DNA from: Thermomonas flagellata | GTDB taxonomy: Bacteria; Pseudomonadota; Gammaproteobacteria; Xanthomonadales; Xanthomonadaceae | Direction of reading: 5' to 3' | Length of the DNA stretch: 64,000 nt | Assembly: GCF_022419185.1 (NCBI RefSeq) | Contig: NZ_JAJOZK010000002.1 | Coordinates: 1 to 64,000, forward strand | Shown: in pieces, positions 2,132-55,651 of the stretch | Numbering within the stretch: position 1 is the first letter of the stretch | Layout of the letters: every line of letters starts with the position of its first letter | Notes under the pieces: model-generated | The model's input: the letters and a program-made list of their open reading frames with translations, nothing else | Told to the model about the DNA's origin: nothing | The model's database searches: none | Made by a program: the position numbers and the translations under genes

Positions 2132-3829
2132 TTGTCCGAGACCCCCAACGACGCCGGCGAAGTCGCCGACAAGCGCGTGCGCCGTACCCGCGTGGCCAAG
2201 GCCGCCACTCCGCCCCCCGACACTGCCGCCGAACCCGCGACCGCGGTGGCCGCATCCGCCGCACCGGCCCCCGCCGCGGAGCCCGCGCGCGACTCCGCAC
2301 CGGCCGAGACCGCCCCCGCGCCTGCCGCGGCCACCGAGAGCCCGGGCGCCAGCACCGCCAGCGAACCGCCTGCGGGCGAGGCGGGCGCCGCCGGCCAGCC
2401 CGGAGGCGGCGACGGCCAGCGCCGCCTGAGCCGCCGCGAGCGCTTCAAGAACCGCCGCGAGCGCCAGCGCGAACGCCAGCGCGAGCTGGCGATGGCGGAC
2501 GAGGGCGGCAACGGCCAAGAGCCCTTCGTGCCGCGCCCGCACCCGCAGGTGCCGGAGGGCTTCCCCAGCTACACCCTGGGCGACCTCAAGCGGCTGCCGG
2601 CGCACCGCCTGCTGGAGATCGCCGACCAGCTCTCCATCAGCGAGGGCGTGGCGCGCGCGCGCAAGCAGGACATCATCTTCGCGATCCTGAAGGTGCTGAC
2701 CCGCCACGGCGAGGGCGTGCAGGCCGACGGCGTGCTGGAGATCCTGCCGGACGGCTACGGCTTCCTGCGCGCGGCCGAGGCCAGCTACCTGGCCGGCCCG
2801 GACGACGTCTACATCAGCCCGTCGCAGATCCGCCGCTTCAACCTGCGCACCGGCGACCACGTCTCCGGCCGCATCCGCTGGCCCAAGGACGGCGAGCGCT
2901 ATTTCGCGCTCAACATCGTCGACACCATCAACGGCGAGCCGCTGGAGGCGAGCAAGAACAAGACCCTGTTCGAGAACCTCACCCCGCTGTTCCCGCGCCG
3001 GCGCTTCAAGTTGGAGCGCGGCGACGGCTCCAGCGAGGACATCACCGGCCGCATCCTCGACCTGATGGCGCCGCAGGGCAAGGGCCAGCGCTCGCTGATC
3101 GTCAGCCCGCCCAAGGCCGGCAAGACGATGATGATGCAGCAGATCGCCACCGCGATCACCACCAACCACCCGGACGTGCACCTGATCGTGCTGCTGATCG
3201 ACGAGCGCCCGGAGGAAGTGACCGAAATGCAGCGCACCGTGCGTGGCGAGGTCATCAGCTCCACCTTCGACGAGCCGGCCGCGCGCCACGTGCAGGTGGC
3301 CGAGATGGTGATCGAGCGCGCCAAGCGCCTGGTCGAGCACAAGAAGGACGTGGTGATCCTGCTGGACTCCATCACCCGCCTGGCGCGCGCCTACAACAAC
3401 GTGCTGCCCAGCAGCGGCAAGGTCCTGACCGGCGGCGTGGACGCCAACGCGCTGCACCGCCCGAAGCGCTTCTTCGGCGCCGCCCGCAACGTCGAGGAAG
3501 GCGGCTCGCTCACCATCATCGCCACCGCGCTGGTGGACACCGGCAGCGCGATGGACAAGGTGATCTACGAGGAGTTCAAGGGCACCGGCAACAGCGAGGT
3601 GCACCTGGACCGCCGCATCACCGAGAAGCGCGTGTACCCGGCGATCGCGGTCAACCTGTCTGGCACCCGCCGCGAGGACCTGCTGATCGAGCCGGAGCTG
3701 CTGCAGAAGATCTGGATCCTGCGCAAGCTGCTGCACCCGATGGACGAGATCGCGGCGATGGAGTTCCTGCTCGACAAGATGAAGAACACCAAGTCCAACG
3801 ACGAATTCTTCGCCTCGATGAAGCGCTGA
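2132..3829 (+). CDS. rho: Transcription termination factor Rho
   Basis: Hexameric RNA-dependent ATPase that terminates transcription. The start is TTG at 2132, chosen because a GAGGA ribosome site lies 8 bases upstream (2119-2123) and no ATG precedes the conserved region. The product is 565 residues against about 420 for E. coli Rho. The excess is a 146-residue N-terminal extension rich in Ala, Pro and Glu that ends in an Arg-rich basic patch (residues 97-120). The conserved body begins with [10 protein letters not shown] at 147, followed by the RNA-binding cold-shock-like fold ([13 protein letters not shown]) and the P-loop SPPKAGKT at 325-332. [22 protein letters not shown] (Q-loop/R-loop region) and the C-terminal EFF segment follow. 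Low-complexity Rho extensions are known in other high-GC bacteria, but the role of this one is not known to me. Confidence 0.96.
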
Positions 3830-7575: not shown

Positions 7576-10500
7576 TCAGGGTTCGCGCAGGAAACGCGCC
7601 AGCGACACCGGTGCCGAGGGCGGCGCGGCCGGCACCAGTTCCGCGGCCAGATCCACGTAGCCGCGTACCAGCGCCAGCTCGCGCGGGGTGCGCCCGAGCG
7701 CGTCGCGCGCGTGTACGTCGGCGCCGGCCTGCAGCAGCGCCTGCGCGACCTGCAGCAGCCCATGCAAGGCCGCCAGGTGCAGCGCGGTGAAGCCGCGCGC
7801 GTCGCGCGCGTCCAGCCGCGCACCCTCGTCGAGCAGGCGCTCCAGCCCGCCCAGCAGCACGTCCTCGCGCGCCGGGGTGCCGGGCTCGGCGCGCGCGCCG
7901 AGCAGCAGCAGCAGCGGGGTCAGGCCCTTGTCCGCGGGCGCATCCACTTCGGCCCCGGCCAGCAGCAGCGCATCGAGTAGCGCCAGCAGCCGCGGCCGCT
8001 CGCGCGCGGTGAAGCCGTACAGCGCGGCGCAGTGCAGCGCGGTCAGGCCCTGCGCGTCGCGCGCCTGCAGGTCGGCGCCGGCCGCCAGCAGGCGGCTGGC
8101 CAGGTCCGGCAGGCCGAGCGCGGCGGCCAGCATCAGCACGCTCACCTGCCCGGGCAGGCGCTGCTCGAGGTCGGCGCCGGCCGCGAGCAGGCGGTCCACG
8201 ATCGCCGGCTGGCGCATGCTCACCGCCGCCGACAGCGGGGTGGCGCCGGTGTAGGCGGCCAAGCTGGGATCGGCGCCGCGCGCGAGCAGGGCCTCGACCA
8301 CCGCCAGGTGGCCGCCGCCGGCGGCACGCAGCAGCGCGGTGCAGCCCTGGGCGTCGGTGGCATCGATCGGCAGGCCGAGCGCGAGCAGGCGGGTCACCGC
8401 CTCGGCGTCGCCGCGCACCGCCGCCGCCGGCAGGTCGGGGCCGCGCAGGGGGCGCCCGGGCCATGGCCAGCCGCGCCAGTCCAGCCACTGCGTCAGCTCG
8501 CGGCGGCCGGCGGCGAGCGCCAGCCCGAGCGGGGTCTGGCCGTCCGCGGCGCGCCGGTCCGGGCGCGCGCCGGCGCGCAGCAGGGCCTGCAGCAGGGGCA
8601 GGTCGGCGCGCGCCACCGCGATGTGCAGCGCCGTCTCGCCACCGGGGCCGGCACTGTCCGGATCCACCCCGCGCGCCAGCAGCGCGCTCGCCAACCGGGC
8701 CCAGCCGAGCCGGGCGGCCAGCAGCAGCGGGGACGTACCATCCGGCGTCGGCGCGAACGGATCGGCCCCGCGTTCCAGCAGTTCCAGCGCCTGGCGCTCG
8801 CCAACGGCGTCTGCATCCTGGGCCAGGCAGGCGGCGAGGAAGCGCGCCAACCCCCCGCCCCCGGCGGGGCTGGCTCCCGCCGCGAACAGCGCCTGCAGCA
8901 CCGGCCAACCGGCGCTGCCGCGCGCCAGTGCCGCCCAGACCGGCAGCGGCTGCCCGGGCAGGCGTGCCTCGGCGGCGGCGCCGTGGCGCAGCAGCCAGTC
9001 CACCGTGGACGGCAGCGCCGCGATCTCCGCATCCAGCAGCAGGCCGCTCAGCGCGGCGGGCGTGACCAGGCCCAGCAGCGGCGCCGGGTCGGTGCCGGCG
9101 AGCAGGCGCTCGCGCAGCAGCAGCAGCGGCGGACGGTCGGCCGGCGGCGCCTCGCCGGCGACCGCGACCGGCAATTCGCGCTGCGGATCCAGCACTGCCA
9201 GCAGGGTCCAGCGCCCGGCCGCCGCGGCCAGGTCGCAGGCGCTGCGCCCGGCGCCATCGGCGGCATGCGGATCCAGCCCGAGCGCCAGCAGCCGCCGCAC
9301 CACCTCGGACGAGGGCGCATCCGCGCGGCAGGCCAGGTGCAGCGCGCTGGCGCCCTCGGCATCGCGCGCGTGCGGATCGGCGTGCGCGGTCAGCAGCGCC
9401 TCCAGCACCGCCGGCGCGCCGGCGAGCGCGGCCGCGTGCAGCGGGGTGCGCCCGGCCTGGTCGCAGGCCGTGGCATCCGCGCCGGCGTCCAGCAGGGCGC
9501 GCACGATCGCCGCATGCCCGGCCGCCGCGGCCACATGCAGGGCGCTGCGCCCGTCGCCGTCGCGTGCATCCAGACGGGCGCGCTGGCGCAGCAGCAGCTG
9601 CACCCCGGCCGGGTCGTCGTCGTCGCCGCCGGCCGCCGCCAGCAGCGCCGGGCGGGCGCCCGCCGCATCCGGCTGCGCGCCGCGTTCCAGCAGAAACTTG
9701 GCCAGCCGCCAGTTGCCGACCGCACAGGCCATCCCGAGCGGGGTCAGGCCGTCGCCATCGCAGGCCTCCAGTTCGGCCCCGGCGTCCAACAGCAGGGCGG
9801 CGACCGCCGGGTCCGAGCTGCGCGCGGCGTGGTGCAGCGGAGTGCGACCTTCGCCATCGCGCACCCGCGGGTCGGCGCCGTTGGCCAACAGCGTGGTGAC
9901 CGCTTCCGGGCGCCCGTGCCAGCTGTCGCGGGTGGCCGCCAACAGCGGCGGCATGCCTTCGGCCGGGTTGAGCTCGGCGCCGCGCGCGATCAGTGCGCGC
10001 AGCAGGCGCAGGTCAGGCAGCAGCGCGGCCAGCACCAGCAGGCTGCGGCGGTCACGCTCGCCCGCGGGCGGCGGCGCCGCCGGATCGGCACCGGCCTCCA
10101 GCAGCGCCAGTGCCTGCGCCACCCGGCCGCTGCGCGCGGCGGCGTACAGCGCAGCCGTCTGCGCGGCGGTGTCCCGCGCCGGCGCGGGCCCTGGGTCGGC
10201 CTGCACTGCGGGCGGCTCCACTTCGGCCGCCGCCGGCCGCGGCATCTCGCGCACCGGCAGGCCCGCGATCCGCGCCGCCGCCATGGGCGCACGTGCCAAC
10301 TGCAGCCACAGCGGCAGCAGCACCGCGGCCGCCAGCGCCAGCCCGAGGCGCGGAGCGCCCGCCAGCCCTCCGGGCCAGGCCAGGGCGAGCGCGGCCAGCA
10401 GCACCAGCGCCACCGGTAGCGCAGTGCGCAGCCCGCGCCAGGCCTGCCGCTCGGCGGCCGGCACCGGCGTCGCCCAGCGCGACGCGAGCGGTCCGCCTGC

Positions 10501-47812: not shown

Positions 47813-48274
47813 ATGCGCCCATCGCTGCGCTGGCTCGCCCCCGCCGCCGTCCTGTTGCTGGCGGCTTGCGCCACGCCACCGGTGCCGCCCGCCCCGCCGC
47901 CGCCCGCGGCCGGAATGGCGCCTCCCCCGCCGCCCCCGGCCGGCGCACTGCGGCCGGCCCCGCCGCCCCCGCCGACCGCCGCCCCGGGCCAGCGTCCGCC
48001 GCCGCCCGCCGCGCCGCCCGCCCCACCTGCGCCGCCCGCCGCGTCCGCGCCACCGCCGCCCGCGCCGCCGATGGCCTGCGATGCCGGGCCGGCCCAGCGC
48101 TTCGTCGGCCAGTCGGCGAGCGCGACCAACGTCGAGGCCGCGCGCCGCGCCGCCGGCGCGCGCACGGTGCGCAGCCTCATGCCGGGGCAGCCGATGACGA
48201 TGGACTACCGCGGCGACCGCCTGAACGTGCTGCAGGACGCCGCCGGCCGCATCGCGCAGATCACCTGCGGCTGA
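47813..48274 (+). CDS. I78 family peptidase inhibitor, proline-rich lipoprotein
   Basis: A 153-residue lipoprotein (lipobox LLLAAC). An extremely proline-rich spacer of about 65 residues links the anchor to the inhibitor domain, which begins CDAGPAQRFVGQSA. The domain has the family signature ARTVRSLMPGQPMTMDYRGDRLNV and ends AQITCG. I78 inhibitors block serine peptidases in Aspergillus and bacteria. The ATG at 47813 has GGAGG 8 bases upstream. The spacer could let the inhibitor reach across the periplasm. Confidence 0.88.
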   Translation: MRPSLRWLAPAAVLLLAACATPPVPPAPPPPAAGMAPPPPPPAGALRPAPPPPPTAAPGQRPPPPAAPPAPPAPPAASAPPPPAPPMACDAGPAQRFVGQSASATNVEAARRAAGARTVRSLMPGQPMTMDYRGDRLNVLQDAAGRIAQITCG

Positions 48275-50874: not shown

Positions 50875-52140
50875 CTACGGCGCCGGACCCGCATTCGATG
50901 CACCCGCACGCCGCCCGCGCATCGCCAGTGCCACCACCGCGCCGGAGGCGAAGGTCAGCGCCGCCACCGCCAGGATCGCCGCGCGCAGGCCGAAGCGGTC
51001 GGCCAGCAGCCCCGCGGCGAGCGCACCGACCGCGTAGCCGAGGTCGCGCCAGAAGCGGTACACGCTGAGCGCCCGCGCGCGCCAGGCCGGGGCCGCCGCA
51101 TCGGACACCGCGGCCAGCAGGCTCGGGTACACCATCGCGGTGCCGACCCCGAGCAGCACGCTGCCGGCCAGCCAGCCGGCGAAGCGGCCGCTGAGCGCGG
51201 TCAGCGCCAGGCCCGCGGCCTGCACCCACATCCCGGCCACGATCAGGCCCTTGCGCCCCCAGCGGTCGCTGAGCGGCCCGGTCACCACCTGCAGCGCGCC
51301 CCACACCACCGGATACACCGCCTTGAGCAGGCCGATCCGCTCCAGCCCCAGTCCTAGCGCCGCGAAGAACAGCGGGAACAGGCCCCAGCTCATGCCGTCG
51401 TTGAGGTTGTTCACCAGCCCGGCCTGGGAGGCCGCGAACAGGTCGCGGTCGCGCCAGCTGGTGCGCGCGAAGACCTCGGCGAACCCCGGCCCCGGCGCCC
51501 CCACCGGCGCCGCACGCGCTTCCAGCGCCACGTATGCGGCGGTGTCGCGCACCAGCGTCCACGACAGCAGGGTGCCGGCCACCGCATAGCCCACCCCGAG
51601 CCACAGCGGCGCCGGGCGCAGCCCATGGCGCGCGGCCAGCCAGCCGGTGGCGAGCGCGGTGGCGCCGACCGCGAGATAGCCGGCGAACTCGTTGAGCCCG
51701 ACCGCCAGGCCGCGCTGGCGCGGCCCGACCAGGTCGATCTTCATCACCACCGTCATCGACCAGGCCAGGCCCTGGCTGGCGCCGAGCAGGACGTTGGCCG
51801 CCACGATCCAGCCCCAGTCCGGCGCGGCGATGATCAGCCACGGCACCGGCAGCCCCAGCACCCAACCCAGCAGCAGGGTGCGCTTGCGCCCCCAGCGGTC
51901 GGCCAGCTGCCCGGACACCAGGTTGGCCGCCGCCTTGACCAGGCCGAAGCTGACGATGAAGGCGGTGACCAGGCTGGCCGACGCGAGGTGGAACTGCTCG
52001 CTGCCGATCAGCGGCACCACCGTGCGCTCGATCCCGACCAGCCCGCCGACGCAGGCGTTGACCACCACCAGCAGCGCGAACTGGCGCCAGTTGGCGCGCA
52101 GGCCGAGGCGGACCGGAGCCGGCGGGGCGGGTGGGGTCAT
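50875..52140 (-). CDS. MFS transporter
   Basis: A 421-residue major-facilitator protein with 12 hydrophobic segments. Motif A occurs twice ([17 protein letters not shown] and [17 protein letters not shown]), one in each half. The central loop and [17 protein letters not shown] segment resemble uncharacterised drug/proton antiporters. Substrate unknown. Ends 59 bases upstream of folE. Confidence 0.87.
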
Positions 52141-52181: not shown

Positions 52182-53399
52182 TCAGAACCACAGGCGCACG
52201 CCCGCGACCCAGCGCCCCTCGCGCACGGGCCATCCCGCCGCCCGGCGCAGGCGCGCGGTGGTGCCGTAGCCGCGCTCCCACTCCCAGCCGAGATAGGGCG
52301 CGAACTGGCGGTCGATCTCATAGCGCAGGCGCAGCCCCGCCTCCAGCGTGGCCAGCCCCGCGCCCAGCCGCCAGGCCGGATCCGCGCGCGCCTGCACCAG
52401 GGCTTCCGCGCGCCACTGCAGGATCAGGCGGTTGCTCAGCAGGGTGTCGTACTCGCCGTCCAGCCGCAGCTGGTGACGGCCGGCGCGGCCGAGATAGGCG
52501 GTCGCGGCCAGCTCGAACTTGTACGGCGCCAGCCCCTGCACGCCGAGCCCGAGCCAGTCGCGCCGCGGCCCGTCGCCGCGCTGCTGGCGCACGCCGGCGA
52601 CCACGTCCCACCACGGGCGCACCGCGCGTCCGGCGAACAGCGCCAGCTCGCCCTGCTCCAGCCGGCCCGCGGCAGCATGCCCGCGGGTGCGCCACCACAG
52701 CCGGTCGAGATCGCCGCCGATCCAGCCCTGCGCCTCCCACTGCCAGGCACCGGCCGCGGCCGGCACCGCCTCCAGGCGGTCGATCAGGCTGTAGCTGTAG
52801 ATCCCCTCGCCGTGCCTGTGCATGTGCGCGTGCAGCGACGGAAACGCGGCCGCCAGGTCCTGCGCGGTCGGCGGCGGAATCGGCGTGCGCGGCGCGGCGG
52901 TGGCCGGCAGGTCGTCGGCCCCCGGCGCAGGGGGCCTCTGCGCGTGATCCCTCTGCGCGTGATCCCTCTGCGCGTGATCCATCTGCGCGTGATCCATCTG
53001 CGCGTGATCCATCTGCGCGTGATCCATCTGCGCGTGATCCATCTGCGCGTGGTCCCTCTGCGCGTGGTCCCTCTGCGCGGGGTCCCTCTGCGCGGGGTCC
53101 CTCTGCGCGGGGTCCCTCTGCGCGGGGTCCCTCTGCGCGGGGTCCCTCTGCGCGTGGTCCATTTGCGCGTGGTCCATTTGCGCGTGATCCCTCTGCGCGT
53201 GATCCCTCTGCGCGTGATCCCTCTGCGCGTGATCCAGCTGCGCGGGGCTCTGCCCCCGATGCGCTGCGCGCAGCGGCGGCACCTGCAGCGCAGGCCCGGG
53301 CGGCGATGCGGCCTGCCGGGCGGCGACCGGAGCCGCGGCCAGCGCGGCGGCGAGCGCGGCCGCCAGCGCCAGCGCGGCCGGGAGGCACGGCGCATTCAT
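52182..53399 (-). CDS. copB: Copper resistance protein CopB with pentapeptide repeat array
   Basis: Outer-membrane copper protein of 405 residues. A signal peptide (1-33) is followed by a repeat tract at residues about 55-155: twenty tandem pentads of the form D-(H/P)-A-Q-(R/M), fifteen with His and five with Pro. A Pro linker follows. The beta-barrel (about 185-405; [36 protein letters not shown]) ends in [10 protein letters not shown] with a terminal Phe. His/Met-rich N-termini bind copper in CopB homologues. The ATG at 53399 overlaps the copA stop (ATGA). The repeat length is exceptional and described separately. Confidence 0.93.
52936..53235 (-). repeat. Minisatellite: 20 copies of a 15-base unit in copB
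   Basis: Exactly twenty head-to-tail 15-base units without interruption; each unit is five codons. Units differ at only a few positions, giving His or Pro at the second residue and Arg or Met at the fifth. Variants lie in blocks: a run of five Pro units is flanked by His units. Such blocks are the mark of recent slippage or unequal crossing-over. Length change stays in frame. Confidence 0.98.
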
Positions 53400-55171
53400 G
53401 GCTCCACCCGCACTTCCCGGAACATGCCGGATTCCATGTGGAAGAACAGGTGGCAGTGGTAGGCCCAGCGCCCGAGCGCGTCGGCGCGCACGCGGTAGCT
53501 GCGGCGGGTGCCGGGCGGCATGTCCACCGTGTGCTTGCGCAGATGGAAGCGGCCGTCGGCATCTTCCAGGTCGCTCCACAGCCCGTGCAGGTGGATCGGG
53601 TGGCTCATCATGGTGTCGTTGACCAGCACGATCCGCACGCGCTCGCCGTGGCGCAGGCGCAGCGGAGTGCTCTGCGCGAACTTGACGCCGTCGAACGACC
53701 ATGCGAAGCGCTCCATGTGCCCGGTCAGGTGCAAGGTGAGTTCGCGCCCGGGCGCGCGGCCGTCCGGGTCCGGGAACAGGCTGCGCAGCGCGCCGTAGGT
53801 GGCCACCCGGCGCCCGTTGCCGCGCAGCCCGACCCCCGGATCGTCCAGGCGCGGCTGCGGGTCCATCGCCTGCATGTCCACCAGCGGATTGTCGGCAAGG
53901 CGCGCCGCGCCGGCCGCGGCATGCCCTGCGTGCCCGGCCTGGCCGGCGTGCGCCATCCCGGCGCCGCAGCCGCCCTCCATCCCCGCCATTCCGCCCATCG
54001 CCGCGCCGCCGCCGTGGCCCATGTCGGCCATGCGCAACAGAGGCCGCGGGTCGAGCGGCGGCACCGGGGCGCGCAGGCCGGGGCGGGTGGCGAGGGTGCC
54101 GGCGACCCAGCCGGTACGCGCCGCATCCTGCGCGAATACGGTGTAGGCCTCCTGCCCGCGCGGCTGCACGATCACGTCGTAGGTCTCGGCGACTGCGATG
54201 CGCAGTTCGTCGACCGTCAGCGGGTGCACGTACTGCCCGTCCACCGCCACGATCGTCATCTCCAGCCCGGGGATGCGCAGGTCGAAATAGGTCATCGCCG
54301 AGCCGTTGATCAGGCGCAGGCGCACGCGCTCGCCGGGGCGGAACAGCGCAGTCCAGTTGTCCGCCGCGGTGTGGCCGTTGAGCAGGTAGGTATAGGTGTG
54401 CGCGTTGACGTCGGACAGGTCGGTCGGGGTCATGCGCATGCGGCCCCAGGCCGCACGGTCGCGCAGGGTGGCGCGTAGCCCGTCGCGCCCGGCGTCGCGC
54501 AGGAAGTCGGCGACCGTGCGCTGGTAGGTGTTGTCGTAGCTCGGCATCTTCTTCAGCCGCGCCATCAGCGCCGCCGGCGGCAGGTCGGTCCAGTCGGACA
54601 GCATCAGCACGTAGTCGCGCTCGTACGCGAACGGCTCCGGTTCCAGCGGGTCGATGATCAGCGGCCCGTACAGCCCCGCCTGCTCCTGGTAACCGGAGTG
54701 GCTGTGGTACCAGTAGGTGCCGCTCTGGCGCACACGGAAGCGGTACAGGTAGCTCTCGCCGGGGCGGATGCCGTCGAAGCTCAGCCCGGGCACGCCGTCC
54801 ATGTCCGCCGGCAGCAGGATGCCGTGCCAGTGGATCGAGGTGTCCGGGCCGTGGATCGCGCCGGGCGGCAGCGCGTTGCGCACGCGCAGGCGCACCTCGC
54901 TGCCCTCGCGCCAGCGCAGCACCGGGCCGGGCAGTTGGCCGCCGAGGGTCACCGCCGGGCGCGGGCGGCCGGTGAAATTCACCCAGGTCTCGCCCACGCT
55001 GAGGTCGAAGTCGGTGCCGGCGACCACGCCGGGCGCATCCGGCGCACGCAGGGTCCAGGCGGGGCGCGGCCACAGGGCCGCCAGGCCGGCGCCGGCCAGG
55101 CCCTGGACGAACCGGCGGCGGGTCAGGCCGGCCGCGGTGGGCGCGGCCGGCAACAGCAAACGGGCAGACAT
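53396..55171 (-). CDS. copA: Copper resistance multicopper oxidase CopA
   Basis: Periplasmic multicopper oxidase of 591 residues, exported by the Tat path (twin-Arg TRRRFVQGLAG at 17-27). Copper ligands are His114/His116 (HWHG), His156/His158 (HSHSG), His524/His527/His529 (HPIHLHG), and Cys573, His578, Met583 (HCHLFFHMESGM), so type 1, 2 and 3 sites are complete. A Met/His-rich linker (about 380-430, with MGHGGGAAMGGMAGMEGG) is a probable copper store. The ATG at 55171 has AGGAG upstream. It lies 84 bases after copL and is coupled to copB. Confidence 0.96.
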   Translation of the reverse strand: MSARLLLPAAPTAAGLTRRRFVQGLAGAGLAALWPRPAWTLRAPDAPGVVAGTDFDLSVGETWVNFTGRPRPAVTLGGQLPGPVLRWREGSEVRLRVRNALPPGAIHGPDTSIHWHGILLPADMDGVPGLSFDGIRPGESYLYRFRVRQSGTYWYHSHSGYQEQAGLYGPLIIDPLEPEPFAYERDYVLMLSDWTDLPPAALMARLKKMPSYDNTYQRTVADFLRDAGRDGLRATLRDRAAWGRMRMTPTDLSDVNAHTYTYLLNGHTAADNWTALFRPGERVRLRLINGSAMTYFDLRIPGLEMTIVAVDGQYVHPLTVDELRIAVAETYDVIVQPRGQEAYTVFAQDAARTGWVAGTLATRPGLRAPVPPLDPRPLLRMADMGHGGGAAMGGMAGMEGGCGAGMAHAGQAGHAGHAAAGAARLADNPLVDMQAMDPQPRLDDPGVGLRGNGRRVATYGALRSLFPDPDGRAPGRELTLHLTGHMERFAWSFDGVKFAQSTPLRLRHGERVRIVLVNDTMMSHPIHLHGLWSDLEDADGRFHLRKHTVDMPPGTRRSYRVRADALGRWAYHCHLFFHMESGMFREVRVEP

Positions 55172-55255: not shown

Positions 55256-55651
55256 TCAGGCGATCGGCGGGCGCAGCAGGCGCGCGGGCGGGGCGGCGGC
55301 CAATCCGCTGTGCGGCGGCGCCGGCGGGGCGGTCGCGGCCGACCCCGGCGCCGGCACGGGCAGCGGTGGCAGCAATGCGATCCCGGCATGCAGGCAGTCG
55401 CAGCCGGCGCGCCCGTGCTGCGCATGCGGGCACGGGCAGTCCGGCGCGTGCGCGGCGGGCGCCGGCGCGGCCGCATGGCAGGGCGGCACGGCGCCGGCAC
55501 GCGCCTGTGCATGCGCATGTGCAGCAGGTGCTGATGGAGACGCCAGCGCGGCGGCGGCCATCCGGGTCGCGGCCATCGCCTGGGCGACGCCGCCCAGCAC
55601 CAGGCTGAGCAGCAATAGGACGCGCAGCAGGGGCGGCAGCGCTCGGCGCAT
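55256..55651 (-). CDS. copL: CopL family metal-binding regulatory protein
   Basis: A 131-residue exported protein preceding copA. The signal (about 1-27) is followed by a His/Cys-rich region with Cys58, 72, 74, 84 and 86 and histidines at 45, 47, 59, 68, 76, 79 and 88. It ends LLRPPIA, as CopL proteins do. In Xanthomonas, copL upstream of copAB is required for copper-induced expression, though its mechanism is debated. No other regulator is adjacent, which fits this role. Confidence 0.8.
   Translation of the reverse strand: MRRALPPLLRVLLLLSLVLGGVAQAMAATRMAAAALASPSAPAAHAHAQARAGAVPPCHAAAPAPAAHAPDCPCPHAQHGRAGCDCLHAGIALLPPLPVPAPGSAATAPPAPPHSGLAAAPPARLLRPPIA

Follow-up and report, generated by a model that had tools for sequence, protein, structure and literature searches.

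The outer-membrane protein PcoB of Caulobacter vibrioides consists of a barrel and a His/Met-rich N-terminal tail of ~109 residues, which the accessible part of the study on it (PMC12509749) sees as predicted disordered, very likely periplasmic and needed for Cu efflux and for PcoA stability, and which tolerates truncation and swapping. When residues 34-109 were deleted, copper sensitivity and copper content went up, PcoB went down and PcoA was destabilised; additional loss of residues 3-33, which leaves no tail His, made the mutant behave like the pcoAB deletion, and its PcoB level was lower. Removal of 26 or 52 tail residues, or exchange for the E. coli tail, left resistance unchanged, a tolerance observed with plasmid-borne pcoAB driven by a strong promoter. 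Replacing nine His or four Met by Ala kept resistance and raised cell copper, so the ligands do matter for efflux, and stabilisation of PcoA by PcoB was not wholly dependent on the tail His (PMC12509749). The tail carries ATCUN-like His clusters; a tandem array is not described in the accessible part of that report.

Repeated ligand motifs are known from related systems. The MXXMXHXXM (MDH) motif recurs in CopA and CopB of Pseudomonas syringae, and its number varies among the CopA copies of Pseudomonas putida strains (PMC3056050, in the parts available). SilE, a disordered periplasmic protein, carries HxxM motifs, and HxxM spacing binds silver in SilE peptides (PMC5008109, PMC10080550, both in part). 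Length variants of copB as such are not new either, since gaps of 3, 300 and 36 bp are already in print for Xanthomonas strains (Lai et al. 2021 as cited in PMC8453159, in the part available). Among the open-access titles listed, none deals with this array or with slippage in copB, which is a statement about titles and not about absence from print. 'DHAQ' returned, among the matches listed, only a rheumatology questionnaire or an anthraquinone and was uninformative. The accessible parts of PMC13115771 do not mention methionine, histidine, motif, N-terminal or MDH, and tail length is not addressed in those of PMC13115771, PMC10667631, PMC3071791, PMC10667641 and PMC11651105.

A genuine copB in a copL-copA-copB cluster

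The window, i.e. the whole 64-kb stretch analysed here, holds a copB coding sequence of 405 aa on the minus strand (52182..53399), as assigned by reading frame and Pfam PF05275. CopB matched this profile at E=1.7e-70 with 237.3 bits (cut-off 27) over profile positions 2-208 of 208, such that aa 201-405 cover it end to end. These residues make up the outer-membrane beta-barrel domain (52185..52799, minus strand), which also matched the solved CopB chain 7pge_B at E=2.1e-47; an NCBIfam search of copB returned zero models at a threshold of 0.001. Adjoining copB on the same strand is copA (53396..55171), the multicopper oxidase of the copper-resistance system, with 945.9 bits against TIGR01480 (cut-off 478.95), and the cluster includes copL (55256..55651, minus strand), encoding a CopL-family metal-binding regulatory protein that scored 62 bits against NF033807 (cut-off 40) and was without a match in the Pfam search. 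With both neighbours above cut-off, the gene is a genuine CopB in a cluster of the xanthomonad type, and it gives the one CopB match at E<=0.001 in the whole genome (2.52 Mb, 15 contigs). Its ATG (53397-53399) shares ATGA with the copA stop, and a four-base A/B gene overlap is likewise found in Caulobacter pcoAB (PMC12509749, in part). For chromosomal copLAB of xanthomonads, a role in copper homeostasis more than in resistance has been argued (PMC3071791, in the part available).

By eye, residues ~1-27 (53319..53399, minus strand) are a probable signal peptide, the hydrophobic stretch of which has no preceding Lys or Arg; a conventional signal peptide is reported missing from Caulobacter PcoB too (PMC12509749, in part). 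An MFS transporter gene (50875-52140) lies 41 bp downstream of copB, a place taken by a cytochrome c gene in the seven copLAB plasmids of Xanthomonas that were retrieved among the near matches described below. A promoter scan gave 0 sites, and terminator-like sites numbered 3 against a shuffle mean of 0.5.

Twenty tandem units in the CopB tail

Inside the N-terminal tail of CopB, aa 56-155 are encoded by twenty uninterrupted tandem 15-bp units reading D-(H/P)-A-Q-(R/M) (52935..53234, minus strand), as delimited by Tandem Repeats Finder (TRF) and codon alignment, with the copy number taken from one assembly. A previous sequence-only reading of this DNA had described the same twenty units at 52936-53235; the array stands as described and its coordinates shift by one base. 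That reading also named the gene copB and counted 15 His and 7 Met as ligands, both correctly. TRF reported 52935-53244 with period 15, 20.7 copies, 95% matches and a score of 445. As the runner-up row in the 64-kb window scored 101, a chance repeat was set aside. The array is confirmed as real. Preceding the twenty in the reading frame is a degenerate 21st unit, SPAQL (53235..53249, minus strand).

Array residues include 15 His, 7 Met, 5 Pro and 13 Arg (15 DH units and 5 DP units). Variation among units is confined to 4 of the 15 positions, two of which are synonymous (GAT/GAC, CAG/CAA), while the other two alter a ligand (CAC/CCC for His/Pro, ATG/AGG for Met/Arg). Seven unit types follow each other in the order AAABCDEEEEEDFGGGGAAA, and identical units are neighbours at 11 of 19 junctions; when the units were shuffled 100,000 times, this count was reached 0 times. 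Identical units run to no more than five in a row (75 bp), and the blocks meet at distinct junctions; one block of five DPAQR units (53070..53144, minus strand) has neither His nor Met. Since local duplication of neighbouring units leaves just such a block order, the pattern fits local expansion, which the sequence-only reading had supposed to be recent. We envisage that one unit, DHAQM or DHAQR, may have been copied in tandem via in-frame slippage or unequal recombination, that units lacking Met, plus one block also lacking His, would have been copied along, and that the change at the closing position probably ran from Met to Arg. Folded as single-stranded DNA, the array does better than its shuffles (z -2.73), of which 3 in 200 fold equally well, and such folding could favour slippage.

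Tail repeats and tail lengths in relatives

Tails were compared at 110 CopB loci, 109 of them besides that of the window (L002), drawn from the best 80 of 404 matches and 30 of 31 genus matching places and thus biased towards relatives of the query. The count of tandem pentads was a loose one, taking any D/E/N followed by H/P/R at five-residue intervals and including degenerate end units. On this count the longest run is that of the window (20), followed by Lysobacter selenitireducens (L057) with 16, L006 (= L035) and L095 with 10 each, L094 with 9, L004 with 8, L108 with 7 and L007 (= L034) with 6, and 91 of the 110 loci have three or fewer. Like the window array, the runs in L057 and the congener L035 lie in the CopB tail and consist of 15-bp units in tandem (MDHSG/MDHSK; 16 and 10 by the loose count), but their third and fourth unit residues differ from those of the window array and, unlike the latter, nearly all of their units keep His (15/16 and 10/10) and Met (14/16 and 10/10). 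L035 and L004 share 96.1% DNA identity in their barrels, yet the array differs between them by 30 bp or two units, so that close relatives can differ in unit number. The plasmid-encoded CopB of Pseudomonas syringae (pPT14-32, L133) belongs to the same family and has His/Met repeats at the same place ahead of the barrel; these, however, are five MDHS(Q/K)M units (one of them VDHSQM) within MDHSxMQG octapeptides of 8-residue period, as opposed to twenty 5-residue units, 7 with Met, in the window.

Of 25 genomes of the genus, that of the window included, 19 have a CopB barrel match, and the closest barrel match among the 24 other genomes is 62% identical. The unit doublet DHAQ(M/R) turned up in 1 of 395 genomes sampled from the family, that of the window, as judged by an exact DNA pattern that fixes Ala as GCG, so that other codons would escape it, and in genomes drawn from a larger group; within this scope we set aside a motif shared across the family. 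One congener has a CopB relative (G013:C1:1696103-1696815) that matches in two pieces, one with an internal stop, and looks broken. In Stenotrophomonas sp. MMGLT7 (L077) and Xanthomonas massiliensis (L079), CopB tail repeats ahead of position 3001 contain cysteine (EHAAMGHC...), in contrast to those of MDHxxM type in relatives of the window.

Natural length differences also occur in Xanthomonas, for which 20 plasmid records were gathered as near matches to the copB of L123, all of them from this genus (7 of the 20 sequences were fetched). Gene length is intermediate (1269-1272 bp) in 15 records, short (1122-1125 bp) in 3 and long (1425 bp) in 2. When copB of L123 (from X. hortorum) is aligned with that of L125 (from X. 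euvesicatoria), 1122 nucleotides contain 0 mismatches, and an in-frame gap of 147 bp has a 10-bp direct repeat where it joins. The genes of two Thai strains of X. citri pv. citri, L122 and L132, likewise show 0 mismatches over 1272 nucleotides and an in-frame gap of 153 bp. Such strain-to-strain differences, where compared, fall in the tail and keep the frame, in line with the previous suggestion that whole-unit changes in length would be in-frame. However, among the 15 records of middle length are 8 with 99.9-100% identity that come from two species (X. hortorum, X. citri), so length there is not in constant flux. Moreover, the Xanthomonas genes encode a longer linker with MQGMDHSQM motifs dispersed in it instead of a pure 15-bp array. 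Since it is these longer interspersed repeats that change, we regard them as a parallel to the window array and not as the same event. Copper-binding CopB tails of variable length are a known kind, and the array is an extreme case among them.

Ligand content and readings of the array

The units do resemble the MDHxxM-type copper motifs of CopB tails, as the sequence-only reading had noted, yet Met-Asp-His-x-x-Met is present only in part, with His in 15 and a closing Met in 7 of the 20 units. Hence 13 units are without Met, and 5 of these are without His as well. Elsewhere, in 15 distinct runs of at least 4 units, Met closes 88 of 101 units, and none ends in Arg as do 13 of 20 in the window; a Fisher p of 3.5e-6 for this loss of Met is not usable as a test because the units copy each other. 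L095 also shows partial loss of Met, to Thr, Val and others, with Met kept in 5 of 10 units. Up to the aligned barrel, the window tail measures 165 aa and contains 16 His and, besides the start Met, 7 Met. These 23 ligands compare with a median of 21 in 90 homologue tails (the 110 loci minus 10 without a start by our rule and 9 duplicates; as this simple rule chose the tail starts, lengths are approximate). Among the 90, at least as many His are found in 24, at least as many Met in 60 and at least as many of both together in 40; 20 tails are as long or longer, and 73 have a higher His+Met density. With so many ligand-poor units, the array has lengthened the tail without enriching it, and the number of units says little about the number of ligands. 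Repeat count, as the array warns, is not ligand count.

We think it likely, on balance, that the array belongs to a copper-ligand tail that is probably disordered and drifts in length through in-frame slippage. CopB is the outer-membrane barrel of the copA-copB copper-detoxification pair, and the array would be the expanded part of its periplasm-facing N-terminal tail; the His/Met motifs (MDHxxM) of such tails are thought to keep copper near the barrel and to help CopA stability. By their residues, DHAQM units may hold copper, DHAQR units would do so weakly and DPAQR units not at all, the HxxM spacing of DHAQM being that of the SilE peptides. SilE/PcoE metal 'sponge' proteins share this spacing but are separate proteins rather than barrel tails, and the parallel is one of mode of action only. 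Because units without Met or His would have been copied too, the tail would have gained length far more than copper ligands, and if, as in Caulobacter, such a tail works over a wide range of lengths given a minimum set of His, length changes would be largely tolerated in this organism as well.

Alternatively, the Arg and Pro units may be kept as an acidic/basic spacer for docking to CopA or to the membrane surface, and ligands would then be required in the DHAQM blocks alone. The abundance of Arg-ending units here and their absence from the 15 other runs would suit this, as would the charge of the tract (20 Asp, 13 Arg), the five identical DPAQR units forming one block and the contribution to PcoA stability in Caulobacter that does not entirely go back to tail His (PMC12509749, in part). 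Neutral copying of a mutated unit, however, yields the same pattern, the unit doublet is confined to the window genome among the family genomes scanned with the exact pattern, and L095 has lost part of its Met as well, so that to our minds this scenario is unlikely.

Quite unlikely, too, is the idea put forward by the sequence-only reading that tract length tunes copper binding, with a copy number that mutates often, is selected with copper exposure and adds ligands with each unit. In-frame 15-bp units with variants in blocks, otherwise identical plasmid copB genes that differ naturally in in-frame length and copper accumulation by the His and Met mutants of Caulobacter PcoB (PMC12509749, in part) all point its way. 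But more units need not mean more ligands when 13 of 20 lack Met and 5 lack both, and the ordinary ligand total together with the ligand-poor units weakens copy number as a ligand dial; nor is it helped by the unaltered resistance of the Caulobacter truncations (PMC12509749, in part) or by the single length common to 15 of 20 Xanthomonas genes. As a whole, then, the previous interpretation is partly supported. A true copper contingency locus, in which slippage reshuffles both the number and the type of units within populations (ligand-bearing DHAQM, half-ligand DHAQR, ligand-free DPAQR), we hold to be improbable; were it real, cells would differ in the copper held at the outer-membrane channel. 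If copper-resistance tails change in length by whole in-frame motifs, one may ask directly whether ligand number, tail length or neither determines efflux, and units with two, one or no His/Met ligands in one natural protein offer a convenient test object.

A copy number of twenty that is partly an artefact of assembly appears very unlikely. A genome in 15 contigs is probably a draft, and a 300-bp array exceeds usual short-read length; against this, identical runs of at most five units (75 bp) with distinct junctions can be resolved by usual reads, and the reading frame stays open throughout the array. Finally, a DNA element (binding sites) or a code in another frame, to which the CopB reading would be incidental, is extremely improbable and was set aside, since the open further frames are what a stop-free 15-bp unit in 74% GC DNA mechanically gives, and the somewhat better single-strand folding is set against units that lie in frame within a conserved gene at a place where relatives have DHxxM pentads.

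Repeats of other kinds occur elsewhere in the window and its contig. At 47883-48070 lie overlapping repeats of low complexity and high GC content, their units measuring 9-42 bp. In a further 160 kb of the same contig, three TRF rows exceed 445 and the next scores 190. All three rows fall in L139 (G000:C13:124001-144000), at 2422-2863 and 8545-9339, with units of 114-138 bp; the genome thus has other strong tandem repeats, but these are long-unit ones.
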